Assembly: GCF_000427685.1 (NCBI RefSeq)
Contig: NZ_KE386573.1
Span: 1,782,938-1,846,937, forward strand
Source of the DNA: Haloplanus natans DSM 17983
GTDB taxonomy: Archaea > Halobacteriota > Halobacteria > Halobacteriales > Haloferacaceae
Reading direction: 5' to 3'
DNA length: 64,000 nucleotides
Under the pieces are notes generated by a model that was not told the origin of the DNA, ran no database searches, and worked only from the letters and a program-made list of their open reading frames with translations. Position 1 is the first letter of the stretch; each line of letters begins with the position of its first letter. Below are positions 10,249-21,511 of the stretch, one piece after another. A program made the position numbers and the translations under genes.

Positions 10249-11010
10249 CTACTCCTCGTCCTCGTCCTCGTCGTCCTCGCTGGGGAGGAGTTCGAGGTCG
10301 GCGAGGTGGGTCTCGATCTCGTCGTTCGTGAGTTCGTGGAACGCCTCGGAGTCGATGCTGATCGTCGCCACGTCGACGCCGGCGGGTTCGAGGGTGTCGT
10401 CGTTGGTCGTAGCGAGGGCGCGTAGCGCGAGGGCGATCCCCCCGTCGAGGTCGAGGCCGTCCTCGTAGTTCTCTTCGAGGTACTCCTGGAGTTCGCCCCG
10501 GTTGGCGCCGATGGAGACCGCCTTCCACTCGTAGGGCGTCCCCGAGGGGTCGGTCTCGTAGAGGCGGGGCTCGCCGTCCTCGATGCCGCCGATGAGGAGG
10601 GCAACGCCGAAGGGGCGCGCACCGCCGACCTGCGTGTACTGCTGGATGTGGTCGGTGACCTCCTTCGTGAGCGTCTCGATGCCGATCGGCTCGCTGTACC
10701 GGAGGCGGTTGATCTGGGCCTGCCGGCGGGCGAAATCGATCAGCTGTCGGGCGTCGGCGACGTGACCCGCGGAGGCGATGCCCGCGTGGTCGTCGGCCTT
10801 GTGAATCTTCTCGACGCTCGTCGGTTCCATCAGCGGCGACCGGGAGCGCTTGTCCGCCGCCAGCACCACGCCCTCCTCGGTCCGAATGCCGATGCTCGCT
10901 GTTCCTCGCTTGACGGCCTCCCGCGCGTATTCGACCTGGTAGAGGCGGCCATCCGGCGAAAAGATCGTTATCCCGCGGTCGTATGCCTGCTGTTGGGCTT
11001 GTCCCTGCAT
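10249..11010 (-). CDS. psmA: 20S proteasome alpha subunit
   Basis: A 253-residue alpha-type subunit. The alpha-specific N-terminal helix and signature GITIFSPDGRLYQVEYA is intact, followed by VKRGTASIGIRTEEGVVLAA and the pore/ring-interface lysine context ADKRSRSPL. The C-terminus is an acidic run (LLPSEDDEDEDEE) typical of haloarchaea. It forms the outer rings of the protease barrel and gates entry for ATPases such as PAN. The last codons of rnp2 end only 4 bp before its start, so psmA was the last gene of an rnp3-rnp2-psmA row. Insertion of the 10-kb element has now separated it from the front of that operon. Confidence 0.95.
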   Translation of the reverse strand: MQGQAQQQAYDRGITIFSPDGRLYQVEYAREAVKRGTASIGIRTEEGVVLAADKRSRSPLMEPTSVEKIHKADDHAGIASAGHVADARQLIDFARRQAQINRLRYSEPIGIETLTKEVTDHIQQYTQVGGARPFGVALLIGGIEDGEPRLYETDPSGTPYEWKAVSIGANRGELQEYLEENYEDGLDLDGGIALALRALATTNDDTLEPAGVDVATISIDSEAFHELTNDEIETHLADLELLPSEDDEDEDEE

Positions 11011-11014
11011 TGTA

Positions 11015-11173
11015 TCACGTTGACTCTAACTCGAGATCGAGTGCGGCCGCGCCCGTGAAGTCCCCCGGCCCGGATACGTCCACGTTGCCGTCGCGAACGT
11101 AGCCACGCCGACGGTCGTTCTCGAACACGACGCGTCTCTCGGCCCGCACTCCGGCCCGGCGTCCTAAATACCT
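11015..11173 (-). pseudogene. rnp2: Displaced 3' part of rnp2 (RNase P Pop5), left of the integrated element
   Basis: Reading minus from the recombination core, the frame gives R-Y-L-G-R-R-A-G-V-R, continues through VVFENDRRRGYVRDGN and ends ALDLELEST with TGA at 11015-11017. These 49 codons after the shared R-Y-L are exactly in frame with the truncated rnp2 at 21161-21511, whose protein reads VRACEERYL before it diverges. Joining the two at the direct repeat gives a 163-residue protein with the tail expected for haloarchaeal Pop5. The fragment has no start of its own apart from an internal GTG and lies 4 bp upstream of psmA. It is an intact domain awaiting excision rather than a decayed gene: no stop or frameshift is visible. 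Confidence 0.85.
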
Positions 11174-11178
11174 TTCTT
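11165..11178. repeat. Left attachment-site core of the integrated element
   Basis: TAAATACCTTTCTT matches TAGATACCTTTCTT at the right end in 13 of 14 bases (11 contiguous: ATACCTTTCTT). The core falls on the codons for Arg-Tyr-Leu of Pop5. Homology between the flanks stops on either side, as expected for a site-specific recombination crossover. Confidence 0.8.
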
Positions 11179-11267
11179 TCCGCGGACCACGGGACCAGTA
11201 AAGCCCGAAATACCGCCCCTCAAACCCTAAAACACTAATCTACCAAACTCATACGACACCACCAGTT

Positions 11268-11399
11268 ATGAACCTTCCGACCCCCATCGACGTGAAATAC
11301 GACTGTGGTAAATGGATCGGAGCCACCACCGACGACGACATACCCGAAACTTGTCCTGAATGTGGTGCAGAGAAAACGCGGGCAGTCCCCCGAAAATAG
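11268..11399 (+). CDS. Small CPECG-type putative zinc-binding protein, 43 aa
   Basis: ATG 11268 to TAG 11397. The protein begins MNLPTPIDVKYDCGK and ends ETCPECGAEKTRAVPRK. The C-terminal CPECG knuckle together with the upstream Cys-Gly could hold one zinc ion, although only three cysteines are present. Such micro-proteins are abundant in haloarchaea and mostly uncharacterised. It is the first gene inside the left end of the element and diverges from the rnp2 fragment/psmA. No function can be assigned. Confidence 0.55.
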   Translation: MNLPTPIDVKYDCGKWIGATTDDDIPETCPECGAEKTRAVPRK

Positions 11400-11658
11400 A
11401 AAAATCGGGCCGGCCTGTAACTATCTACAAAACCACCGGGATTTACTGTTATTGAATAAACACCTATACCCGGAGACAGCAGGTCGTTTTCTCCCCAACC
11501 ATACTGCTGTCTTCCATTTACTTTCCAAACCGACACGGCCCTGATGATACTTGCCTCGCTGGTCGAATCTAAATGGTGCCGACACTCGCTCGTAGAGTTC
11601 CGACGTAGCAGGGACAAAATTCCGAGAATCGCCCTGTAAGTCGGCGGCTTAGTTTCTA

Positions 11659-11769
11659 CTCAGAAAACGCCGCCCGCCTATCAAACAGACCGACTCGAAC
11701 GCCTTCGCTACCCGTTCCGTAGACTTTGTAGAAACCCTCAAGAGGAGATGGGTTTCAGTAGGCGTGCTG
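11659..11769. repeat. Dispersed repeat copy 1 (long form)
   Basis: The core CTCAGAAAACGCCGCCCGCC is followed by ATCAAACAGACCGA, a variable stretch and then AAGAGGAGATGGGTTTCAGT, AGGCGTG. The same order is found in copy 3 at 13247-13357 with about 85-90% identity by eye. It is non-coding, and copies 2 and 4 share the front part. Confidence 0.7.
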
Positions 11770-11844
11770 AATAGAGGGCGCGTATGCAACATCATACCCA
11801 ATCGAGTTTTACAATAACATTATCATCAATTCTCTCATAATACA

Positions 11845-11854
11845 GAATTATTAG
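11845..11854 (+). promoter_or_regulatory. TATA-like box of the first pilin-like gene
   Basis: GAATTATTAG lies about 29 bp before the GTG at 11879, fitting a leaderless transcript. Confidence 0.4.
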
Positions 11855-11878
11855 TGTTGCTATCGGCTAATCTATAGT

Positions 11879-12418
11879 GTGAGGAGAATCACTTCGTCAC
11901 GGGCCGTGTCACCCGTCATAGCCACGATTTTGATGGTTGCTATCGTGGTGATACTCGCTGTGACCGTCTCGGTGTTTGCACTTGAATTTACTGGCGAGAT
12001 TAATCAGCCTGCTCCTACTGTTGCCCAATCAAGTGGCGAACTCGTCTATGACCTGCCCGGAAGTAATGACCAAATCGTTCGACTTACTCACCTTGCAGGC
12101 GACAGGTTAGATGTATCTGAGTTGGAAATTGCCGTGGATGCAACCGATGCCTGTGGGAAGCAATCCCGGATTGTTAACCTCCCAACAAACACGCTTGGGT
12201 CAGCAAATTACAACGGTGACGACATTTTCGATTACTATAGTCCGGACGGAGGGCAACTTGACACGAGTGCAGATGGTATTTGGAGTGCTGGCGAAACTGC
12301 TACTTTCCGACTTGCAAGCACTGAATGTGAACTAAATAAGAGTGACACGCTTACTATTCGCGTCGTCCACCTCCCGACGAACTCGGTCGTAATCAAAGAA
12401 ACACTGACCGCGACGTAG
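11879..12418 (+). CDS. Type IV pilin-like protein on the element (Arch-pilin N-terminal domain)
   Basis: A 179-residue protein with a GTG start. The N-terminus is a class III signal: short basic leader MRRITSSR, then AVSPVIATILMVAIVVILAV. PibD-type peptidase would cut before AVSPV and the hydrophobic helix would polymerise into a pilus or anchor the protein. The rest is a beta-rich extracellular domain with two cysteine pairs (DACGKQ, STECELN) that could form disulfides. Codon use is AT-richer than in core genes. Haloarchaeal proviruses and plasmids sometimes carry such pilin-like proteins; whether this one is a pilus subunit, an entry receptor or an exclusion factor is open. It has no pilus ATPase partner nearby. 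Confidence 0.75.
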   Translation: MRRITSSRAVSPVIATILMVAIVVILAVTVSVFALEFTGEINQPAPTVAQSSGELVYDLPGSNDQIVRLTHLAGDRLDVSELEIAVDATDACGKQSRIVNLPTNTLGSANYNGDDIFDYYSPDGGQLDTSADGIWSAGETATFRLASTECELNKSDTLTIRVVHLPTNSVVIKETLTAT

Positions 12419-12718
12419 CAGGCCTTCGAACGGTCAGAGGCCCTGATGGTATGAAACGTACTGCTTGTGCGCCTGACGCTCGCTGTGCCGAATCAACCCA
12501 CACAGAAAGTGCAAATATTACCCCACCACCTGCTGACTTCATCCTCTGTATCTCGTACCGCCGTCTCATCAGCATATCAAGGTTCTAACGATCCGTTCCG
12601 TAGAAGTTGTTCTCAGAAAACGCCGCCCGCCCATCGAACAGACCACACCTCTACTAACCCTCCTGCGTGACTCTTGGAGACAACAGGTGTGTGAGGATCA
12701 TTCCGTAGCACCAAGCGG
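12419..12718. other. Gene-free stretch with second repeat copy
   Basis: No gene is supported. It contains repeat copy 2 and the fragment CCTGCGTGACTC...AACAGG, which recurs after copy 4 and before copy 3. Confidence 0.45.
12611..12644. repeat. Dispersed repeat copy 2 (short form)
   Basis: TCTCAGAAAACGCCGCCCGC followed by CCATCGAACAGACC. It is nearly identical over 34 bp to copy 1; the downstream part differs. Confidence 0.7.
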
Positions 12719-12871
12719 TTACTCAGGACTCACAATATCGTTGCACACCGGACATTCAGCCCATATGCCGGTCGTTCCATCGTCTTTCTCGTATTCCACC
12801 AAGATATGGACGGTGAAAATACCCTCCTCACATTTGGGGCATCGTCCGTGTTGCGAAGTATCGGTGGTCAT
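12719..12871 (-). CDS. Small putative zinc-binding protein, 50 aa, CPKC/CPVC
   Basis: ATG at 12871, TAA at 12719. The protein runs MTTDTSQHGRCPKCEEGIF, a middle with EYEKDDGTTG, and IWAECPVCNDIVSPE. Two CPxC knuckles about 30 residues apart form a rubredoxin-like or treble-clef zinc site. Small haloarchaeal proteins of this layout are common and were only recently given family status; their roles are unknown. A TATA-like GTTTATACAG lies about 65 bp upstream on the minus strand. It is divergent from the other zinc protein at 13010, sharing a 138-bp promoter region. Confidence 0.65.
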   Translation of the reverse strand: MTTDTSQHGRCPKCEEGIFTVHILVEYEKDDGTTGIWAECPVCNDIVSPE

Positions 12872-13009
12872 CAGGGGGAAGGAAGGGTGCGTGTGACACT
12901 TTCCCTTCCAATCGGCAGTAGACTGATACGCTGTATAAACTTTGTGCGGTATGTTAGCATAAACGAACTGTCGCCAATACTAATTCACTTGCACCACGAT
13001 CCTCGAATT

Positions 13010-13162
13010 ATGAGCTTCCGGACAGTACTCACTCACCTGCTCGGTGATACTGAGCCGAGTGTCGTAATTGAGTGCCGTCAATGTGGGACGACTGTTACTC
13101 CCGAGACGGAAACTTGTCCTGAGTGCGGCACAACTGAGTTCTGCCGGTACGAGATTCTATGA
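13010..13162 (+). CDS. Small zinc-ribbon protein, 50 aa, CRQCG/CPECG
   Basis: ATG at 13010, TGA at 13160-13162. It begins MSFRTVLTHLLGDTEPS, then IECRQCGTTVTPETETCPEC ending GTTEFCRYEIL. The two knuckles CxxCG and CPECG 13 residues apart are a complete zinc ribbon. Similar short proteins with the MSFRTVL-type N-terminus occur widely in haloarchaea. The start was chosen for this N-terminus; the frame is open further upstream to 12806 but that part lacks protein character. The role is unknown, possibly a nucleic-acid or protein adaptor. Confidence 0.7.
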   Translation: MSFRTVLTHLLGDTEPSVVIECRQCGTTVTPETETCPECGTTEFCRYEIL

Positions 13163-13465
13163 TGATCTCAACTACTGCGTAGCCCTCCGAGGATTAACAG
13201 GGTGGAAGTACCCGAATGTCCACGATACCCGTTTCATAGGGGTTGTCCTCAGAAAACGCCACCTGTCCCATCAAACAGACCGATTCAAGCGCCTTCGATA
13301 CCTGTCTCGTAGACCTTGTTGAACCTCACAAGAGGAGATGAGTTTCAGTAGGCGTGTTAAATATAGGACGTATATTCAGCAAGACTGTGTGCTTGACGGA
13401 GATTGCTCGATACAAGGAAGACACCTACTGATCAGCTTGTACACTCGTTCCAAAAAAGATGAAGG
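13163..13465. other. Gene-free stretch with third repeat copy
   Basis: No gene is supported. The first 85 bp (TGATGATC...GGGGTTGTCC) resemble the sequence after repeat copy 4, and the rest is the long-form repeat copy 3. Confidence 0.45.
13247..13357. repeat. Dispersed repeat copy 3 (long form)
   Basis: CCTCAGAAAACGCCACCTGT, CCCATCAAACAGACCGATTC, then AAGAGGAGATGAGTTTCAGT and AGGCGTG. It has the same order and spacing as copy 1. Confidence 0.7.
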
Positions 13466-13696
13466 TCACACAGTTTCGGCTGTAATGTATTCGCCGCAGT
13501 AGACTTCAACCTGAGAGTTGCTGTAAGCGAATGAGACGTGTATATTGCTCCAATCTTCGCAAATTGTGTTGAGTGCATCAGGGTCTATTGACCCGTAGAG
13601 AGGTGGAAGATCATCAACAGCGGTATTTTCGACAATACTTACGAGATTAATAACTGCGTGGCCGGTATGCTCATCCGAAGCAATCTCATAATCCAT
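13466..13696 (-). CDS. HalOD1 output-domain protein, 76 aa
   Basis: A stand-alone HalOD1 domain: AVINLVSIVENTAVDDLPPL, then YGSIDPDALNTICED and a C-terminal strand pair IHVSFAYSNSQVEVYCGEYI. HalOD1 (haloarchaeal output domain 1) is a small domain usually fused to, or encoded beside, signalling proteins such as bacterio-opsin-activator-like regulators. Here nothing is fused and no histidine kinase is close. It is AT-richer than chromosomal homologues would be, in line with residence on the element. Function beyond signalling is unknown. Confidence 0.72.
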   Translation of the reverse strand: MDYEIASDEHTGHAVINLVSIVENTAVDDLPPLYGSIDPDALNTICEDWSNIHVSFAYSNSQVEVYCGEYITAETV

Positions 13697-14292
13697 TATT
13701 CTATTAAGACCGCCTAACTGAATAGTTCCTCTGCTTTTTCATATCAATCATAACATCGATGAACGACCGTCGTCTTAACTGAGGAAGATTTCAATAAGCA
13801 TCTCCGTAGGAGTTGTTCTCAGAAAACGCCACCCGCCCATCAGACCAACCACGCCCTACTACCTTACTGCGTGACCCCGAGGTTAACAGGAGTGGAAGTA
13901 CCCGAGCGTCCACGCTACCCATTCCGTGAGAGTTGTCCGGAAGAAAACCGGATAGCTTGTGCTGACTTTTCCACACGACGATGAACCGCCGGTTGCCATT
14001 CAAGCTCAACAACCATACTCTCCCCCAAATGATTGCGCTCTAGGGGGAAGATATGAGCCTCCACACAGAAAACCCGGCGCGCACTCCATCAAGGGCCGCG
14101 ATGGTGTTCCTACTGGTTACAAACCCGCTGTACACCACTCGTTCTCGTAGAAACAGAACAGGCTACTCATAGAGGGCTACTCAGCTTGCTATGCCTGACT
14201 TAATGTAGGTGACTACTTGCCCTCCTCACTAAGCTTCCTCACATATAGAATAGAAGGGGGTTTATATACTTGATTTCGAGTGACTGCACCCC
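13697..14292. other. Long gene-poor gap with fourth repeat copy
   Basis: No convincing gene on either strand over about 600 bp. It holds repeat copy 4 at 13816-13850, followed by TTACTGCGTGACC...AACAGGAGTGGAAGTACCCG, which also precedes copy 3. A 39-codon frame from ATG at about 14053 has no protein-like features. Confidence 0.45.
13816..13850. repeat. Dispersed repeat copy 4 (short form)
   Basis: TTCTCAGAAAACGCCACCCG followed by CCCATCAGACCAACC. The A for G change in CGCCACC is shared with copy 3. Confidence 0.7.
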
Positions 14293-14994
14293 TCAGTATG
14301 CAGGTGGCCCTTGTTCTGCTACCAAGTTTTCTCTGGCATGGTCAGCAACTTCACTCTCAAACTTGGACATTTTATAGTTTTTACTCTTATTTGGCGATTC
14401 ATTCTCAACTATTCTCTGAACTTGATAAAAGAATTTGTTAACAGTTTTGTCAGTACAGTTGTAGCTGACGCACGCTTCCCTGTACGCTTCATCACGTCCC
14501 TCTCCACGGTTATTCGGATGGCACTTCCGCCTTCCATCTTTGAACAATACGTATCCACAGACCGCTAACGCGACCCACTCTTTATTCCGACCAAATTTCG
14601 AGAGATTTAGAGCGGTAAAGATGCGAACTGCCCTATTTTGTTGTCCCTTATTAAGTTCAACTCTATCTGCCACCATTCTCATCTGCGTCTCGTTGAGATG
14701 GAACGTTTCATAGCGTCTATTCTGCCATTTTCCTCCATTCTGTAATCCGCCATTCACTCGATCAAGATGTTTGTATGTAGATTCTTTATGGGAATATCGC
14801 CAGTCAGATGGTGAATCCCAATATTCACCGTCGACAGTAGGAGTCTCTTGCCAGTTGATTATTGTCGCATTGTTTGTATCACAGTTTGATAAATCCGTAC
14901 AGGTTTTTTCGTCGCTCTCAACGGTTTCCGGTTCAGGTGGCAACGGCGGAGAATCATCGCCTAGGTCGCCACTAATGAGATCTTTTGCAAACAT
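14293..14994 (-). CDS. Hypothetical protein, 233 aa, acidic tail plus helical C-terminal domain
   Basis: I do not recognise a characterised family. Residues 1-100 are hydrophilic and look disordered. Residues about 100-225 appear helical: LNETQMRMVADRVELNKGQQ, ALNLSKFGRNKEWVALAVCG, and a Cys/His-containing KCHPNNRGEGRDEAYREAC before NKFFYQVQRIVE. The helical part loosely resembles the cyclin-like fold of archaeal TFB, but the match is weak and by eye only. A minus-strand TATA-like CTTAAATACG (about 15050-15060) precedes the ATG at 14994. As the largest hypothetical of the element besides the integrase, it is the best candidate for a replication or maintenance factor, which is inference only. 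Confidence 0.6.
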   Translation of the reverse strand: MFAKDLISGDLGDDSPPLPPEPETVESDEKTCTDLSNCDTNNATIINWQETPTVDGEYWDSPSDWRYSHKESTYKHLDRVNGGLQNGGKWQNRRYETFHLNETQMRMVADRVELNKGQQNRAVRIFTALNLSKFGRNKEWVALAVCGYVLFKDGRRKCHPNNRGEGRDEAYREACVSYNCTDKTVNKFFYQVQRIVENESPNKSKNYKMSKFESEVADHARENLVAEQGPPAY

Positions 14995-14999
14995 TAGAA

Positions 15000-15600
15000 A
15001 TTACACAGACGGAATGTATCCGTCCTCCTCAAGCTATAGACACATACATCGTATTTAAGACTGCTTGATATTGCGGCTTTTCTGTCATTTTTGTAGTAGA
15101 TATTCTGAATCAAAGTTGTACTCCTCCATCGGAAGAAATCCCATTGTAACTTCTCCAAAATCTGCTCGCGCATTTTCGGCCTTACCACTCTACACCGCGT
15201 ATCGCCGACTGATGATGTGCTAACTTCCTCCTTGATCAGCATACGGAAAGAATAGAATCGTGTTAGAAAGTACCGTGGTAGACGGACGCTTACCTTATAT
15301 GTTATACATAGAGTGTTACACCTATGTTACTCATGCAAGTGTTACTCTGTATGAGTTACTCAGAAAACCAACCGCATTACAGGTAATAGTTAGTTCATGT
15401 AACCGTTGTATGAACCAAGTGAGAAACACAAGTGGAACACTAAGCGTAACTCTGTATGTTAAACATAAGAGAACACTAAGAGAAACACGAATGGAGGACA
15501 CGTAAGGGATAACCCCTTCCCCCCTCCTCTCCTCAACCATTAGACACAGACATAGTATATAAAGACACCTGTGAAATTTCTTCTAGCATCCGAGCGCAGG
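15000..15600. other. AT-rich non-coding region
   Basis: Apart from short weak frames this 600-bp stretch has no gene. It contains the promoter of the hypothetical at 14994 and the repeat-rich tract 15310-15500. Confidence 0.5.
15310..15500. repeat. Iteron-like short repeats and a 23-bp imperfect palindrome
   Basis: TGTTAC or AGTTAC units recur at about 15313, 15324, 15339 and 15353. GTTCATGTAACCGTTGTATG (from 15392) is the first part of a 23-bp near-palindrome ending AAC. GAACACTAAG occurs twice (about 15434 and 15471), AGAAACAC twice and ACTCTGTATG twice. Such clusters are typical of replication origins, partition sites or operators. No replication initiator is identified, so the assignment is open. 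Confidence 0.5.
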
Positions 15601-15846
15601 TTACGAAGGCAGACCTGTCTTGCTCCTCATTCGCAGGTCGTCGAGTAGATCGTTGAGTGCGTCGGCGGGGACGTATTCTCCCGGCGGCGTTTCCTGTGAA
15701 CCCACTCGGTATTCATTCATCCGAGCTTGGAACGCTTCGGCGGCGCTCTCGGATTCTCCGGGTAGGTTGGCTACCTTCTCAGGCACTCGTAGTCCGGCTG
15801 TGTCGGGGTTCATGTTCTCAGGGTGCTGTGAATCGGGTGCGACCAT
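15601..15846 (-). CDS. Hypothetical acidic protein, 81 aa
   Basis: ATG at 15846 (a TTG at 15864 would add six residues). The sequence begins MVAPDSQHPENMNPDTAGLR and ends DALNDLLDDLRMRSKTGLPS; it is mostly helical and charged, without cysteines or membrane segments. It lies about 50 bp downstream of the winged-helix gene on the same strand, so the two are probably one transcript. Its size and position next to a regulator are compatible with a partner or antitoxin-like role, but there is no motif to support that. Confidence 0.5.
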   Translation of the reverse strand: MVAPDSQHPENMNPDTAGLRVPEKVANLPGESESAAEAFQARMNEYRVGSQETPPGEYVPADALNDLLDDLRMRSKTGLPS

Positions 15847-15894
15847 TGCGAGGTGTGTACGCAAGCCGTGGCGTCCTGCAAAGCCCTCGGTAGG

Positions 15895-16140
15895 TCACTC
15901 GTTGGGAAGATCTGGTCGCCACCATACAACAGCTCGACCACCGACCTTCTTCCGCTTGAGATCACCGCGTTCTTCGAGAGCGGTTAATTTGTTATGCGCA
16001 GTACGCCGGACTACTCCCAACTCCTCGGCTATCTCCGACGCCGTCCGGGGTTCGTGGTCGGTGAATACTGCGAAAGCATCGTCAGGTGATACCTCCTCGG
16101 TGTATGTTCCTTTCTCGCTCCGGCTCCTCTCGTCGCTCAT
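15895..16140 (-). CDS. Winged-helix transcriptional regulator, 81 aa
   Basis: MSDERSRSEKGTYTEEVSPD leads into a compact wHTH: DDAFAVFTDHEPRTASEIAE, recognition region ELGVVRRTAHNKLTALEERG and the wing DLKRKKVGGRAVVWWRP. The C-terminal WWRP end is a frequent feature of small haloarchaeal wHTH proteins. ATG 16140 is preferred; an upstream ATG at 16161 adds seven residues. Divergent from the SWIM gene, with nested inverted repeats in the shared promoter that would suit binding by a dimer. Probably the element's own repressor or switch protein, by position. Confidence 0.72.
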   Translation of the reverse strand: MSDERSRSEKGTYTEEVSPDDAFAVFTDHEPRTASEIAEELGVVRRTAHNKLTALEERGDLKRKKVGGRAVVWWRPDLPNE

Positions 16141-16169
16141 TAGAATAGGATACTCCGGCAACCGCGATT

Positions 16170-16230
16170 AGTGTTCTGCCTATTCCTACGAACACTACCG
16201 GAATACTTATCTCCTGTTCCCTCGTAGGAA
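16170..16230. promoter_or_regulatory. Nested inverted repeats in the divergent wHTH/SWIM promoter
   Basis: AGTGTTC (16170-16176) pairs with GAACACT (16190-16196), and TTCCTACGA (16183-16191) pairs with TCGTAGGAA (16222-16230). The arms are perfect. They lie 30-90 bp upstream of the wHTH start and 75-135 bp upstream of the SWIM start, a good place for an operator. Confidence 0.5.
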
Positions 16231-16304
16231 TTGGTGAGAAGAACGGTTCCCTTGGGGCGCGTGAAAGCGTCCGGGTGGTAGTGACACCCGGAGCCGGCTT
16301 CTCA

Positions 16305-16784
16305 ATGGACGAAAAGCCAATGGCAACTAACGAAAGCGGAAAAGAAAAGACTGCTGTTGAGTACCTGAACTTCGGCGCGAAGACGGCCAAGCGCGTGACG
16401 TGGGAAGCGTGGTCATTCCGCTTGGTCGGCCCGCTCCAAGTCTTAGTCACGAACGAATCCTACGGGGTCGAGAAGGACGCACACGCCTACGTAGTGGCCG
16501 TCGAGGACGTGGGTGGAACGATTGTACCCCGAGAGTGCGAATGCCCTGCTGACCGCTTCAGGGACGACTACGCGTGCAAGCACCGCGCCGCCCTTGCCAC
16601 CGTAGCTGGCCCGGTGGTGATGAATGCAGCGGCGGAGTTCCCTGAGAAATCACTTGAAGGCCCCGACTCCGTCGACCCCACTCCGGTAACGGATGGTGGA
16701 CACCGCGAGGATCAGAATTGTGACTGCGAGAGCTTAGGGGATCTCCCCTGCTGGCCTTGCTACCAGTCTGAGCGCAACAAGTAA
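16305..16784 (+). CDS. SWIM zinc-finger protein, 159 aa
   Basis: Residues about 15-60 are a small beta-rich domain (AWSFRLVGPLQVLVTNESYG). Then comes the SWIM pattern CxCxnCxH, here ECECPADRFRDDYACKHRAA. SWIM domains bind zinc and occur in DNA- or protein-binding factors, including recombination helpers and transposon proteins. The C-terminus adds further cysteines (NCDCESLGDLPCWPCYQSER), perhaps a second metal site. Possible starts are 16275, 16305 and 16320; 16305 was chosen as the most balanced. Haloarchaeal genomes have many such proteins, often on plasmids. Confidence 0.72.
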   Translation: MDEKPMATNESGKEKTAVEYLNFGAKTAKRVTWEAWSFRLVGPLQVLVTNESYGVEKDAHAYVVAVEDVGGTIVPRECECPADRFRDDYACKHRAALATVAGPVVMNAAAEFPEKSLEGPDSVDPTPVTDGGHREDQNCDCESLGDLPCWPCYQSERNK

Positions 16785-16808
16785 ATCAGCCAACAGAGAT
16801 AGAACATT

Positions 16809-17273
16809 ATGTGTTTCAACGAACCAAGTGAGAAGGCATTAGCCCTCAATAACGGCTATATCCGTGTGTTCAAGAATGACAAGTCCGAGACTGTGTGGGC
16901 ATATGACCCTGTTAGAGGAACGTACTGCGGTGAGTTCGATGACGGCTTGCATTCAACTCCCCAATCGGTGCTATGGCCGAGTGAATTTAGCAACAGGACG
17001 GGCTGGCTTGACGTTCGAGAGCCACCACATCTGATTTACGAACCAGAGGGTACGTATGATGATTTCATCTCCGGTACGGAAAGGGAGTATCGGACTCACT
17101 TAGTCCGTGACGGGAAGATTCTTTGCAAAAATAAGATGACTGTTCCGCACCCCGATTCAGAGGACTTGACTCCGGTGTCTGAATTCTCGGAAGAGGAGCT
17201 TCTACGCCTATCCGGACAGATGTGTTCAAACTGTCCGGACATAGACCATATTCTCTCGGAGGAGGAAAAATAG
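16809..17273 (+). CDS. Hypothetical protein, 154 aa
   Basis: It begins 24 bp after the SWIM gene and is probably co-transcribed. The protein starts MCFNEPSEKALALNNGYIRV and ends with a cysteine pair MCSNCPDIDHILSEEEK. The middle has many aromatic and acidic residues (GTYCGEFDDGLHSTPQ). No family is recognised. It lacks a signal peptide or membrane segment. The CxxC near the end could complement the SWIM protein in a metal-binding complex, which is speculative. Confidence 0.55.
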   Translation: MCFNEPSEKALALNNGYIRVFKNDKSETVWAYDPVRGTYCGEFDDGLHSTPQSVLWPSEFSNRTGWLDVREPPHLIYEPEGTYDDFISGTEREYRTHLVRDGKILCKNKMTVPHPDSEDLTPVSEFSEEELLRLSGQMCSNCPDIDHILSEEEK

Positions 17274-17657
17274 AGTCGGGCTAACGACGGTCGGCGGGCT
17301 GGTGGTGATGGAAGTGGCGGCGGGGGTTTCCTGAGCAAATCACTCGTGTCTGCGAATTTGCTTGTGATCAATTAAACCCGTAGGCGTGGAAGGCCCACCG
17401 CGTAGTTGCCGGTACGGCTACGATTCTGATTGATCCGCAGGTAGAAGTGTGCGGGTAATTTCAGTTGGAGAATAGATACTACTAATGTATAGTGTCATCC
17501 CACCCTCAATTCTCAAAGACAATAATTTGGCCATCGAATTTATTCCAACTGCCGCCGAAAATGCTGGTAGCGCCGAATAAGAACGCGTAACGGCCCCCCG
17601 GACGCGATATGCCAGAAACAGGCCGTGGCCGTTCTGGTACTTCGGCGACTAAAAACA
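17274..17657. other. Gene-free gap before the second pilin-like gene
   Basis: No gene is visible. It contains a diverged inverted relative of the dispersed repeat (about 17314-17338, GCGGCGGGGGTTTCCTGAG) and the promoter region of the downstream pilin-like gene. Confidence 0.4.
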
Positions 17658-18119
17658 ATGCAACTGAAACAACTACTTACCGAAGATAGGGCAGTCAGTC
17701 CCGTCATCGGCGTGATTCTAATGGTCGCAATAACCGTTATTCTCGCCGCTGTGATCGGGACGTTCGTGCTCGGCCTGGGAGATCAGGTCAGCGAAAGCGC
17801 ACCGCAAGCCAGCTTCAGCTTCGACTTTTCCTCCGGTGGTACCAATGCCGACGTTTTCGATGGTGAACCAGGTGACAATGTCACAATCACGCACGAGGGT
17901 GGCGAGACACTCGAAGCGAGTAATATCGGGGTAGAGGGAAGTATTAGTAGTGGTGGTGTAACCGGCGGAGTGGCTAATGGCAACTGGCCCACCACTATTG
18001 AGGCAGGTAGTTCCTCAGAATGGGAAGGTGTCGACGCTGGCGAGACTATTCGTGTGATTTGGACGAATCCGGCCGGTGGCGCGACAAACACAATCGCGAA
18101 GGCGACTGCACCGCAGTAA
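17658..18119 (+). CDS. Type IV pilin-like protein 2 on the element
   Basis: A 153-residue protein. ATG 17658 gives the leader MQLKQLLTEDR followed by AVSPVIGVILMVAITVILAA, a textbook archaeal pilin N-terminus cut before AVSPV. The mature domain is Gly/Ser/Thr-rich (SSGGTNADVFDGEPGDNVTI) and beta-rich, with EAGSSSEWEGVDAGETIRVI near the end, as in many haloarchaeal DUF1628-type pilins. It is closer to the common haloarchaeal type than the first pilin-like gene at 11879. It is followed after 48 bp by the HTH/LAGLIDADG-like gene, which has its own TATA box. Confidence 0.8.
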   Translation: MQLKQLLTEDRAVSPVIGVILMVAITVILAAVIGTFVLGLGDQVSESAPQASFSFDFSSGGTNADVFDGEPGDNVTITHEGGETLEASNIGVEGSISSGGVTGGVANGNWPTTIEAGSSSEWEGVDAGETIRVIWTNPAGGATNTIAKATAPQ

Positions 18120-18138
18120 CGACTCGCGACGGCGACGA

Positions 18139-18148
18139 CATTTTATCC
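18139..18148 (+). promoter_or_regulatory. TATA box of the gene at 18168
   Basis: CATTTTATCC lies about 25-28 bp before the double ATG at 18168/18171, indicating a leaderless transcript. Confidence 0.45.
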
Positions 18149-18167
18149 GAAAAACACACCTACTCAG

Positions 18168-18959
18168 ATGATGGACCGCTGGCCGCTTACTGAACAGTCA
18201 CTCGCTCGCACCTACCGCTCATCGTATGATGACGCATATGAGGCGATTCTCGACTACCGCAGGGTGCAGTCCTATCAGGAATCTCATCCTGATGCAGGGA
18301 GTTACAAAGTCGCAAATGCGTTGGAATTGCCTCGCGGTCGGATTCGAGGATGGATGGATGAGACAACACCAGATGCTCTGAGTGGTGTTCGTCGAGCCCA
18401 AAAATTGGGGTGGTTCGACGTTGATTCCAATGATCCTGCTGACCCACTTTTGAGAGCATTCATTCAACTTTTGGCGGGCGTCTACGCAGGGGGATCAATT
18501 CGATCTTCGGGATGGATGCCCCATTGGACAATTAACGGGCCAATTAATCGAATTAAACAGTCTCTCGACACACTTGGTATGGAGTACCGACAGATACATA
18601 TTCAGGATGCACAACGGGCAACCGAACTCGTCCCACGTACTGACGGTAGTCTTCTTGCTCGATCTCTTTCCGTATTGGGCGCTCCAACCCAATCAAAAAA
18701 CAAATCCTCTATTGATTCCCTTCCCGCATATCTGTTTGAACTCCCACTTGAAATTCGTCGGGAGTTCGCAGGCGTCTACGTTGCATACCGACAGAGCGGC
18801 GACAGCCAAACAATCAGTTTGCAAGAAAATAGAGCTGACTCGTATCACCGTAATCTTGCGAAACTCATCACCAGCGTTATTGATGATCCTGATTCTGTGA
18901 CCGTCGGTGAGAGAGGAATCTATATTTCTGCGGATGTTCGCGATAGTTTATTTCTATAA
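18168..18959 (+). CDS. Hypothetical protein, 263 aa, HTH plus possible LAGLIDADG-like fold
   Basis: Residues about 20-70 look like a helix-turn-helix: YDDAYEAILDYRRVQSYQ, DAGSYKVANALELPRGRIRG, WMDE. From about residue 95, FIQLLAGVYAGGSIRSSGWM and later REFAGVYVAYRQSGDSQTI resemble the paired helix-plus-strand units of LAGLIDADG homing endonucleases and WhiA-like proteins. The catalytic acids of the dodecapeptides are not preserved, so it would be a DNA-binding relative rather than a nuclease. The assignment is by eye and uncertain. It follows the pilin-like gene, a pairing worth checking in other genomes. Confidence 0.55.
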   Translation: MMDRWPLTEQSLARTYRSSYDDAYEAILDYRRVQSYQESHPDAGSYKVANALELPRGRIRGWMDETTPDALSGVRRAQKLGWFDVDSNDPADPLLRAFIQLLAGVYAGGSIRSSGWMPHWTINGPINRIKQSLDTLGMEYRQIHIQDAQRATELVPRTDGSLLARSLSVLGAPTQSKNKSSIDSLPAYLFELPLEIRREFAGVYVAYRQSGDSQTISLQENRADSYHRNLAKLITSVIDDPDSVTVGERGIYISADVRDSLFL

Positions 18960-19054
18960 TTACGACTCATCACCAGCAATCAATTTTGCCAAATATCTCT
19001 CGGTCTAAGGCTTCTAAGGGATTCAGAACTCGTCCCTGATTACGATTGTTCCGT

Positions 19055-19189
19055 TCATCCCCCGGCAGATTCTCGTCTTAGATACTCTGATAAATCTCGC
19101 ACACCCGTCGTGACGCAGTAGTTGCGAATTTGCTCGGCTTCCCACAAGGTCGCGGCCCGTTTTCTCCGGACAACATCCGTGGGAATCAC
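19055..19189 (-). CDS. Possible small protein, 44 aa
   Basis: GTG at 19187-19189, TGA at 19055-19057. The peptide starts VIPTDVVRRKRAATLWEAEQ and ends DLSEYLRRESAGG, an amphipathic helical, protein-like pattern. The alternative is a decayed fragment of a longer gene, since a stop codon lies shortly upstream in the same frame. No family is recognised. Low confidence. Confidence 0.3.
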   Translation of the reverse strand: MIPTDVVRRKRAATLWEAEQIRNYCVTTGVRDLSEYLRRESAGG

Positions 19190-19594
19190 CAAGTCGCCTA
19201 TTACGACAGCGCGAAATTCTCACAACGAGTGGGACGACTTACTTGGGATCTCGACCGGGCGGGACTGACGAGGTCGCAACCGGAGGGGAACAACTGTAAT
19301 CACCATTGTCAATAGTTTTATATACAATCTCTGTGTCTCTAAGATAGAGAGAAGAGAATCCGGCTTTTTGCGGTGTAAGTTGCGGTGCTAACGGGTAGAA
19401 CGACCGATACACATATATAGAATGTATGTGTTTACGAACTGCGGAGAGAGGGTTGTTCTGCAAACTTACTGATTACTGAGCCGGAGGTAACTCTCTCTGA
19501 TAAAAAGTGGAAGGCGCGAGCGAGTTGTATCACGCGGCGAATAAGGAGCTTGGACACCCGGAAGACCATCGGCGGATTCGGGCGTAACTGAGTG

Positions 19595-19619
19595 TTGGCG
19601 GGCGGCGTTTTCTGAGAGA
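19595..19619. repeat. Dispersed repeat copy 5, inverted and partial
   Basis: TTGGCGGGCGGCGTTTTCTG AGAGA is the reverse complement of the repeat core TCTCAGAAAACGCCGCCCGC. It sits right before the small gene at 19627. Confidence 0.6.
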
Positions 19620-19626
19620 AGCAACA

Positions 19627-19785
19627 ATGTCTACTGAGAAGTTTAGCCTGTTTAGCGGTGCCTTTGATCGACAGTCGAGTGACGATGATCTGCGAGAGTC
19701 GTTAGAGCTTATTGCGAAGCGAGAGACGGATATGGGTCAGGTAGCCCGATGGTGGCTGATAGGACTTAATCACCGCGCTCGTTAA
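19627..19785 (+). CDS. Small hypothetical protein, 52 aa
   Basis: ATG at 19627, TAA at 19783-19785. It reads MSTEKFSLFSGAFDRQSSDD, then LRESLELIAKRETDMGQVAR and ends WWLIGLNHRAR. The residue pattern (charged helix, tryptophans near the end) looks protein-like. Its last 20 bp overlap the 3' end of the integrase gene on the other strand. No family is recognised. Small genes next to an integrase sometimes encode excision factors; nothing here proves that. Confidence 0.5.
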   Translation: MSTEKFSLFSGAFDRQSSDDDLRESLELIAKRETDMGQVARWWLIGLNHRAR

Positions 19786-21106
19786 GCATCCCGTAGATAA
19801 CGTCTTTAATTGACGTAGATTCGTTTTCAGTAAAGTTTCGGAGCATACTTTTCATAGCCGCTCGTTCTTCGTCGCTTAGATCGGGTTCAACAAGTTCTTC
19901 AATCATCATATTGTGAACCTGATCTTTGGTAGCTTTCGCGTCGGCGGCGACAAGTTCGCCACAGGCGGAGCAAGCGCGGGCGTTCGGTTTTAGTGTACGA
20001 CCGCAGACGGGGCATATTCCGGGGGTGATAGGGCTTTCATCGTCTTCGTCTCGGATACCTATTTTTTCCTCGGTGCTTTTAATGTAATCTTCGTTAGAGA
20101 TGTGCTGGTAGGTAGTTGCCATTACGTTGCTGTCTTTCGAGTGTCCTAACAGGAATTTGATCTCGTCGTCGTCAAACCCGTGGTCGCGCTTCATCACCGT
20201 GACAAAGTAGTGGCGCATTTTGTGGGGTTTGACTGATTTTTTGATACCTGCTTGTTCCGCGTATTTCTTGAGTCCCCGGCGGATGCTCCGCTCGGTGATG
20301 GGTCGATCAAGACGAGTTTGGCTGTTTGAGGGGTCGCCTATGAACACGTAGGTTTCGGGTTCGTCGCCGCGAGGGTGGTACTGTAACCAGTCCTGGATGT
20401 AGCGTCGAGCGCCGAGTAGGGGGCGTTTGAGTCCTCGTTTGTCAGCACCTTTGAGTCCGTATTCTTCGTCGTTGAGGTAGTAGACGCCGTTTTCTGCGTC
20501 TATGTCTTTCACGCGAAGCGTGGTGAGGGCGTGTAGGCGCTGTCCGGTGAAGATCAGCATTTCGAGGATAGCCCGCCAGCGTGGGTCGGGCATTTCGTCT
20601 CGGAGGGCAGAGATTTCTTCGCGGGTAAACATATCCCGGTCGTCGTAGGCGGGGGTGTTCGCCTTTTTGAACATATCTATGTCGCCGTGTTTGACACCGA
20701 GATCGTCGTGGTATTGGTAGAAGCATTTGGCCGCACAGAGGAATTTGTTGACTGTTTGCCGACTGTATCCACCTTCTTTGCTGTTCGGATGAAACCCGGT
20801 GTCCATGTCGGCGGCCAGCGTGTTGAGTTGTTCTGCGTCAGCAGTCAGGTAGTCGATGCCGTCAAGGTCACGCCAGCGGAGTAGGACGCTAATGTATTGG
20901 TAGATGGTTCCGGGGGCGTACTCTTTGTGTTCGCCGTTGGGTGCGATGTATTTGTCGCGCGGGTTTCTTGAGTCGAGCGCGTTGGCAAGGCCGATAAGTC
21001 GTCGTGCGAGGTCGGGATCGAGGTCGCCGTTTTGGGAGTTATCCCGTATTTTTTGGATTTCTCGGTCGAGTCTGACGGCGGGATTGTCGGCGTTGTCGAT
21101 GACCAT
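19766..21106 (-). CDS. Tyrosine recombinase/integrase with C-terminal zinc ribbon
   Basis: A 446-residue protein. Residues about 1-150 form the SAM-like core-binding domain (YAPGTIYQYISVLLRWRDLD). The catalytic domain shows Arg about 190 in GQRLHALTTLR, His295-x-x-Arg298 in KPHKMRHYFVTVMKRDHG, His322 in FLLGHSKDSNVMATTYQH and the nucleophile Tyr333. After it comes an extra zinc ribbon CPVCGRTLKPNARACSACGE (about 365-384) and a helical tail. It would integrate and excise the element at the repeats in rnp2. The gene starts 54 bp from the right core and reads in the same direction as rnp3-rnp2, so read-through from the host operon could also express it. It is complete, not split by integration. 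Confidence 0.92.
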   Translation of the reverse strand: MVIDNADNPAVRLDREIQKIRDNSQNGDLDPDLARRLIGLANALDSRNPRDKYIAPNGEHKEYAPGTIYQYISVLLRWRDLDGIDYLTADAEQLNTLAADMDTGFHPNSKEGGYSRQTVNKFLCAAKCFYQYHDDLGVKHGDIDMFKKANTPAYDDRDMFTREEISALRDEMPDPRWRAILEMLIFTGQRLHALTTLRVKDIDAENGVYYLNDEEYGLKGADKRGLKRPLLGARRYIQDWLQYHPRGDEPETYVFIGDPSNSQTRLDRPITERSIRRGLKKYAEQAGIKKSVKPHKMRHYFVTVMKRDHGFDDDEIKFLLGHSKDSNVMATTYQHISNEDYIKSTEEKIGIRDEDDESPITPGICPVCGRTLKPNARACSACGELVAADAKATKDQVHNMMIEELVEPDLSDEERAAMKSMLRNFTENESTSIKDVIYGMLNERGD

Positions 21107-21130
21107 TACGATTATTACTTCTGGTCATAC

Positions 21131-21140
21131 CTATTTAAAG
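21131..21140 (-). promoter_or_regulatory. TATA box of the integrase gene
   Basis: CTTTAAATAG on the minus strand, centred about 30 bp before the ATG at 21106, points to a leaderless integrase transcript starting inside the element. Confidence 0.5.
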
Positions 21141-21160
21141 AAATCGGTTTTACAGGACGC

Positions 21161-21511
21161 TTAGGGCTTTAGATACCTTTCTTCACAGGCACGGACCGTT
21201 CCGGAGACGCCGCGGACCCACAGACCGATCGGGTGGCCGTTCACCTCGCTCACGCAGGCCAGCGCCGCCCGCGCCGGCCCCACCTCGCCCCGACGGACGC
21301 GCACCACCGCCTCGCCGACCCCGGCGCCGAACTCGAAGCGGAGGACTCGGAGGTCGGCGTCGGCGCTCCCCGGATCGCCGAGCAAGTTGCCCGCCGCGTA
21401 CCACACCGCCCGCTGGAAATCGCCGCGTGTGAGATCCGCGTCCGGCCACGCCTCCAGCCCGACGGCGAGGTAGCGCCACCGCGGCTGCAGGTGTTTGGGC
21501 AGGTGTTTCAT
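21161..21511 (-). CDS. rnp2: RNase P subunit Pop5, C-terminally truncated by the element
   Basis: A 116-residue protein. MKHLPKHLQPRWRYLAVGLE is the Pop5/Rpp14 N-terminus, followed by FQRAVWYAAGNLLGD, LRFEFGAGVGEAVVRVRRGE and GLWVRGVSGTVRACEERYL. After Leu114 the sequence switches to element DNA, adding Lys-Pro and stopping. The missing 49 residues are at 11015-11164. Pop5 pairs with Rpp30 (rnp3) and binds the catalytic core of RNase P RNA to help remove tRNA 5' leaders. The alpha-beta core is complete, so the shortened protein may still work. The start is coupled to rnp3 by an ATGA overlap. Confidence 0.85.
   Translation of the reverse strand: MKHLPKHLQPRWRYLAVGLEAWPDADLTRGDFQRAVWYAAGNLLGDPGSADADLRVLRFEFGAGVGEAVVRVRRGEVGPARAALACVSEVNGHPIGLWVRGVSGTVRACEERYLKP
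21170..21183. repeat. Right attachment-site core of the integrated element
   Basis: TAGATACCTTTCTT, one mismatch against the left core. The bases to its right belong to rnp2 codons for Cys-Glu-Glu, and the bases to its left to the element. Confidence 0.8.

Follow-up and report, generated by a model that had tools for sequence, protein, structure and literature searches.

What makes a protein-coding gene or an intergenic sequence usable as an attachment (att) site for a mobile element is an open question. Archaeal att sites lie mostly in tRNA genes and some are protein-coding or intergenic, as for Halorubrum virus BJ1 in an HMG-CoA reductase gene and psiM100 in an AT-rich intergenic site (PMC8371274); most haloarchaeal tailed proviruses are found in tRNA genes (PMC8651126). 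The question can be asked directly in a 64,000-nucleotide stretch of the Haloplanus natans DSM 17983 genome (the window), in which a 10-kb element separates the two parts of rnp2, the gene for the RNase P protein Pop5, at its boundary with psmA, the gene for the 20S proteasome alpha subunit. How can such a site be occupied, and occupied more than once, with both essential genes apparently still in use? Our analysis points to a probable answer: an integrative element would have recombined, by means of its tyrosine integrase, at a chromosomal att site (attB) of sequence GAAAGGTATTTA, a core promoter of psmA resembling a transcription factor B recognition element (BRE) and TATA box and lying within rnp2 codons 111–114, with both essential genes remaining functional. 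Neither gene is apparently lost, because the site combines a seemingly dispensable end of rnp2 with what is very probably the psmA promoter.

The first-pass annotation of this DNA had described a mobile element integrated in rnp2, bounded by a 14-bp direct repeat and carrying its own tyrosine recombinase at one end, and each of these points was borne out. The guanine plus cytosine (GC) content is ~50% across the element (45–56% over 11–21 kb of the window) against ~69% in the flanking DNA. The repeat, AAGAAAGGTAT[T/C]TA, is identical at 13 of 14 positions at the two junctions and, with as many as two mismatches allowed, has no third match in the window (chance expectation, 0.04); within the window, AAGAAAGGTATYTA is likewise confined to the element ends. 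The integrase gene at the rnp2 end is one complete frame between the repeats and is not split by integration. Its catalytic set R..HxxR..H..Y (R190, H295, R298, H322 and Y333) is invariant with that of its closest relative, and the enzyme presumably catalyses recombination at the site. On the rnp2 side the minus-strand reading ends ...CEERYL-K-P-stop, leaving native codons 1–114, and on the other side the displaced tail frame has its stop 4 nt upstream of the psmA ATG. When the two parts are joined at the repeat they encode an in-frame protein of 163 residues, as had been proposed, and two genomes of the same genus (G062 and G046) do contain an uninterrupted 163-codon rnp2 ending 4 nt before psmA. 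We found nothing to favour the idea that the junctions are an assembly artefact; the window is far from the ends of its contig, and two further genomes, G118 and G106, have junctions built in the same way, which makes this explanation the most improbable of those considered here.

To say that an essential gene is split by the element would mislead. The tail is indeed displaced from codons 1–114, but Pop5 is not split functionally: residues 13–114 of the truncated protein cover the Pfam domain PF01900 (Rpp14/Pop5) over 104 of 104 positions, and solved archaeal (Pyrococcus) Pop5 proteins, of 120 residues, align as far as residue 114. What has been displaced is a fast-evolving haloarchaeal tail, with a ratio of nonsynonymous to synonymous substitution rates (dN/dS) of ~0.75 against 0.31 in the domain (ratio of medians; 71 genes of equal length). 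The new stop codon is brought in by the element arm two codons past the leucine codon that overlaps the repeat, and reads YLKP-stop in the window, YLKR-stop in G118 and HLRH-stop in G106. The loss of 49 native residues could be taken to mean that the insertion destroys rnp2 and that the cell relies on another Pop5 or on an altered RNase P. With the domain complete and of the same extent as the solved proteins, a single Pop5 and no second copy found in the window genome, and a truncated Pop5 present in 12 genomes (~113–118 residues where measured), we regard this as very unlikely. The natural states instead predict that the haloarchaeal Pop5 tail is dispensable.

The DNA at the site is conserved in a manner that coding for Pop5 does not readily explain. 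Of 91 distinct rnp2 genes without an interruption, drawn from many genera of haloarchaea, 90 have the sequence GAAANNTATWTR at codons 111–114, and it is kept although residue 112 varies among R, K, N and S and residue 114 among L, M and I (giving EERYL, EEKYL, EENYL, EERYM and EERYI variants). Where codon 114 encodes leucine it is TTA in 53 of 56 cases, against 3 of 816 in codons 1–108, and codon 113 is TAT in 90 of 91, against 35 of 190 in the comparison; the 91 genes are not independent samples phylogenetically, but the contrast is large nonetheless. Furthermore, in 12 genomes rnp2 and psmA are no longer linked (the window genome, G118, G106, G101, G096, G090, G111, G074, G024, G083, L154 and L164), and the motif GAAA-NN-TATTT[A/G] stays with psmA in 12 of 12, at 147–160 bp from the ATG in those measured, while the rnp2 copy is without it in 12 of 12. 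A second block conserved at the base level, GAGAGACG..GTCGTGTTCG, lies ~30 nt downstream of the TATA-like sequence, corresponds to rnp2 codons 123–128 in uninterrupted genomes (~11110–11150 of the window, minus strand) and is kept in unlinked psmA leaders; it is a possible start-site or leader element, located where the transcript start would be expected.

A BRE/TATA-like sequence is thus conserved upstream of psmA, and the sequence at the site is very probably the core promoter of psmA embedded in rnp2. The alternative is that the block is kept for Pop5 or its mRNA rather than for transcription of psmA, and that the integrase, like several other elements, does no more than exploit conserved coding sequence. 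In its favour, the block forms part of a coding sequence in most genomes, E111 and Y113 are kept at the amino-acid level, and there are known examples of att sites in protein-coding genes (PMC8371274). Nevertheless, the extreme codon choice, the persistence of A/T bases while the amino acids change, and above all the fate of the sequence after unlinking make this alternative improbable, if the least so of the competing accounts. Hence the first-pass annotation was right that the site lies in rnp2, but the conserved target is most likely the psmA promoter DNA and not the Pop5 protein. At this locus the putative promoter of one essential gene lies in the 3' coding sequence of another, with the states before insertion, after insertion and after unlinking all occurring naturally, and this natural experiment separates the coding constraint on Pop5 from the promoter constraint on psmA. 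Since psmA is the only alpha-subunit gene found in the window genome at the threshold used, an element at its promoter could affect proteasome expression. At the same threshold, genomes of this genus have one 20S alpha gene each, against two in most other genera of the family. Salinadaptatus halalkaliphilus (L154) and Natrialba swarupiae (L164), both Natrialbaceae, also have a truncated rnp2 and keep the promoter-like sequence at psmA.

The locus is not an isolated case: a tailed virus from a different genus also occupies the site, as does an integrase-less element in a relative. G118 is a Halobellus-like genome that groups with Halobellus rufus in a tree of rnp2 and psmA. Here the two genes are ~60 kb apart, with a ~58-kb tailed provirus between them that has an integrase at its start and encodes terminase, portal, head protease, baseplate, tape measure and a family B DNA polymerase (PolB); it is a tailed (Caudoviricetes) provirus by its gene content, which the window element, judged by the ten proteins scanned, is not. 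The 11.3 kb of this insert that was compared is identical to a 57.7-kb IMG/VR provirus (IMGVR_UViG_2914819717), and the provirus ends are GAGGAAAGGTATCT and AAGAAAGGTATTT. Its integrase, found by a family search, is the closest relative of the window enzyme (66% identical), which provides the second integrase with this target that the first-pass annotation had proposed to look for. No close relative appeared in a scan of named genomes, and none above 45% identity in 392 genomes of the order. G106, from the same genus as the window genome, carries a 1.1-kb insert at the same site (L174 1180–2540) without an integrase, and both of its end sequences align with the ends of the window and G118 elements; a related integrase acting in trans might move it. 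Its trypsin-like protein matches a candidate defence (anti-phage) family, PDC-S45 (E 3.9e-26). The element-side arm CTAAAGCCCTAAG of the window aligns with the arms of G118 (CTCAAACGCTGAG) and G106 (CTCAGGCACTGAG), and among the 392 genomes of the order, a sample that did not contain G118 or G106, the arm pattern was found in the window genome only. All three elements also encode a zinc-ribbon-like protein of 41–43 residues near the psmA end. Apart from the integrase and this small protein, little is common to the window element and the G118 provirus.

The rnp2 and psmA tree places the uninterrupted G046 as sister to G106, within the clade that contains the window genome (support 91/90 and 96/98), which implies either separate insertions or one precise excision. 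The arrangement of the two genes in this genus is nonetheless variable. Outside it, rnp2 and psmA are ~120–260 bp apart with G118 as the exception (family sample compared by eye, leaving out G100 and G125, whose psmA was not among the matches listed); within it the genes are unlinked in 9 of 11 scorable genomes, only some of which contain an element. In G111, G090 and G074, ~70–570 bp of other sequence lies between them, and in G101 ~1.1 kb with a host-like gene; psmA adjoins rnp2 but is inverted in G096, and is ~20 kb away and inverted in G024 and G083. Such genomes, several without an element, could suggest that rnp2 had already parted from psmA and that the element went into a psmA promoter lying between genes and not into the rnp2 gene. 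This order of events is unlikely, and somewhat less probable than a constraint from Pop5 coding, since the uninterrupted G046 is among the nearest relatives (in the same clade, with support of 96/98), the reading frame is continuous when the two sides are joined, the displaced tail is 85–87% identical to the tails of G046, G062 and G106, and the rnp2 side keeps host-type sequence up to the repeat.

Integration into the putative psmA promoter within an intact rnp2 can be described from the junctions as follows. Judging from the repeats, strand exchange would take place within the shared GAAAGGTAT block. Host sequence would then run to GGTAT on the rnp2 side and be followed by the element-type C; on the psmA side, the element's GGAAAGAAAG would precede GTAT, with host-type TT[A/G] after it. 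The psmA gene would thereby keep the host TATTTA and leader, with the element supplying a BRE-like ...GGAAAGAAAG upstream. In both the window and G118, psmA retains TATTT[A/G] and has gained an A-rich BRE-like stretch from the element. A promoter here would be expected to start psmA transcription ~25 nt downstream of GAAANNTATTTA, and the small zinc-ribbon protein at the far end, a possible recombination directionality or regulatory factor, may help excision. As the Pop5 domain and the psmA promoter would both be kept, the site could serve one element after another, of different kinds and in different genera. Comparison of the genomes establishes the site, its repeats, the truncation, the recurrence, the conservation at the nucleotide level and the retention with psmA. 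Several points weigh against the promoter-targeted reading as a whole. The literature searched yielded no mapped start site for psmA, and the distance from motif to ATG implies a psmA leader of ~120 nt, whereas leaderless mRNAs are common in haloarchaea. Clear element insertions number only three, and the unlinked genomes without a clear element may represent decayed insertions or ordinary rearrangements.

The window element is of the classical tyrosine-integrase type; what is unusual is its attB, which is reused and very probably contains a promoter. With the classical non-suicidal elements (PMC8371274) it shares an intact integrase, short direct repeats and a non-tRNA target; it differs in where it inserts, at the point where a core RNase P gene meets a promoter-like sequence of psmA, and in that at least two kinds of element use this site. 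Among the haloarchaeal tailed proviruses (PMC8651126), that of G118 has the closest integrase, the same att site, similar end sequences and the same small zinc-ribbon protein near the far end, but the window element is only 10 kb long, and ten of its proteins, searched against PHROGs and Pfam, gave no match to a terminase, portal, capsid or tail protein. Integration in tRNA genes likewise exploits a highly conserved essential DNA target that is left functional; here, in contrast, a seemingly dispensable tail is cut and a putative promoter kept, and the gene end is not restored. No tRNA gene is present in the window, so this is not a tRNA-targeted element. Elements with SSV-type suicidal integrases also use an archaeal tyrosine recombinase, but the integrase gene here is unsplit and complete between the repeats. 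We found no description of an rnp2/psmA integration site in the open-access literature, a search that mostly did not extend to subscription papers.

More distant relatives of the integrase (34–45% identical) have no tRNA gene within ~1.4 kb in 28 of 29 cases. Three of them (L052, L058 and L060) directly adjoin the start of a gene, RPA-like in two genomes and Rpb4 in one, which is suggestive of 5'-end or promoter targets recurring in the family. A broader proposal, that a haloarchaeal integrase family is specialised for attB sites at essential genes, in their core promoters or 5' ends, with an element arm bearing a matching BRE that rebuilds or retunes the promoter, is speculative and on present evidence doubtful. 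The window genome has a second integrase at another site (G000:C7:1303910-1305097), 40% identical to that of the element.

Coordinates of the element, its attachment repeats, the flanking genes and the element's genes in the window.
Feature	Position	Strand	Basis or remark
Integrated element, repeat to repeat	11165-21183	.	GC drop, terminal direct repeats, uninterrupted site in G046 and G062
rnp2 (Pop5), present form, 116 residues	21161-21511	-	Whole conserved domain, then KP and stop from the element
Displaced rnp2 3' end, RYLGRRAGVR...LELEST-stop	11015-11178	-	Now the psmA leader region and putative promoter
psmA (20S proteasome alpha subunit)	10249-11010	-	PF00227
Attachment repeat, rnp2/integrase side, AAGAAAGGTATCTA	21170-21183	-	Element-type C at position 12
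Attachment repeat, psmA side, AAGAAAGGTATTTA	11165-11178	-	Host-type T; same sequence in uninterrupted relatives
BRE/TATA-like GAAAGGTATTTA	11165-11176	-	Within psmA-side repeat
Tyrosine integrase, 446 residues, C-terminal zinc ribbon	19766-21106	-	PF00589 (E 1.9e-22), PF02899, zinc-ribbon matches
Zinc-ribbon-like protein, 43 residues	11268-11399	+	psmA-proximal end; same end in G118 provirus and G106 element
Type IV pilin-like protein 1	11879-12418	+	PF07790, E 1e-15
Protein of 233 residues	14293-14994	-	Family of haloviruses and haloarchaeal genomes; phrog_12649, E 1.4e-12
Protein of 87 residues	15601-15864	-	Common to G118 provirus, 54% over 50 residues
Winged-helix regulator	15895-16161	-	Domain and PHROG searches
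SWIM zinc-finger protein	16275-16784	+	PF04434
Protein of 154 residues	16809-17273	+	No Pfam or PHROGs match
Type IV pilin-like protein 2	17652-18119	+	PF07790, E 4e-25
Halovirus-related protein, 263 residues	18168-18959	+	phrog_14115, E 1.6e-67

The remaining cargo of the element is listed in the table. No pleolipovirus spike or structural gene was matched among the proteins scanned, which did not include every small frame, and two cargo proteins had no relatives in viral contigs. The cargo DNA matched no phage record, and its matches to plasmid records were short pilin matches and a 445-bp stretch common to a Haloplanus rubicundus plasmid. The 233-residue protein has a weak relative in the G118 provirus and family members in 12 other genomes of the family.

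No free element att site (attP) was found in viral contigs. Within the genome the 12-mer GAAAGGTATYTA occurs at both element ends and once on a 14-kb contig; this third copy was considered as a free attP and rejected as a chance match, as it sits within a coding gene. The contig itself (L192; G000 contig C4, 14.3 kb) has frames resembling a UvrD-type helicase and an ATPase and may be from a plasmid or a virus. The element has two type IV pilin-like genes among its cargo, and similar pilins are found on haloarchaeal plasmids. A further repeat, CTCAGAAAACGCC[G/A]CCCGCC, is scattered in the element at 11659–11678, 12611–12631, 13248–13263 and 13817–13837, with a last, inverted copy at 19597–19617; one of the copies is less exact.

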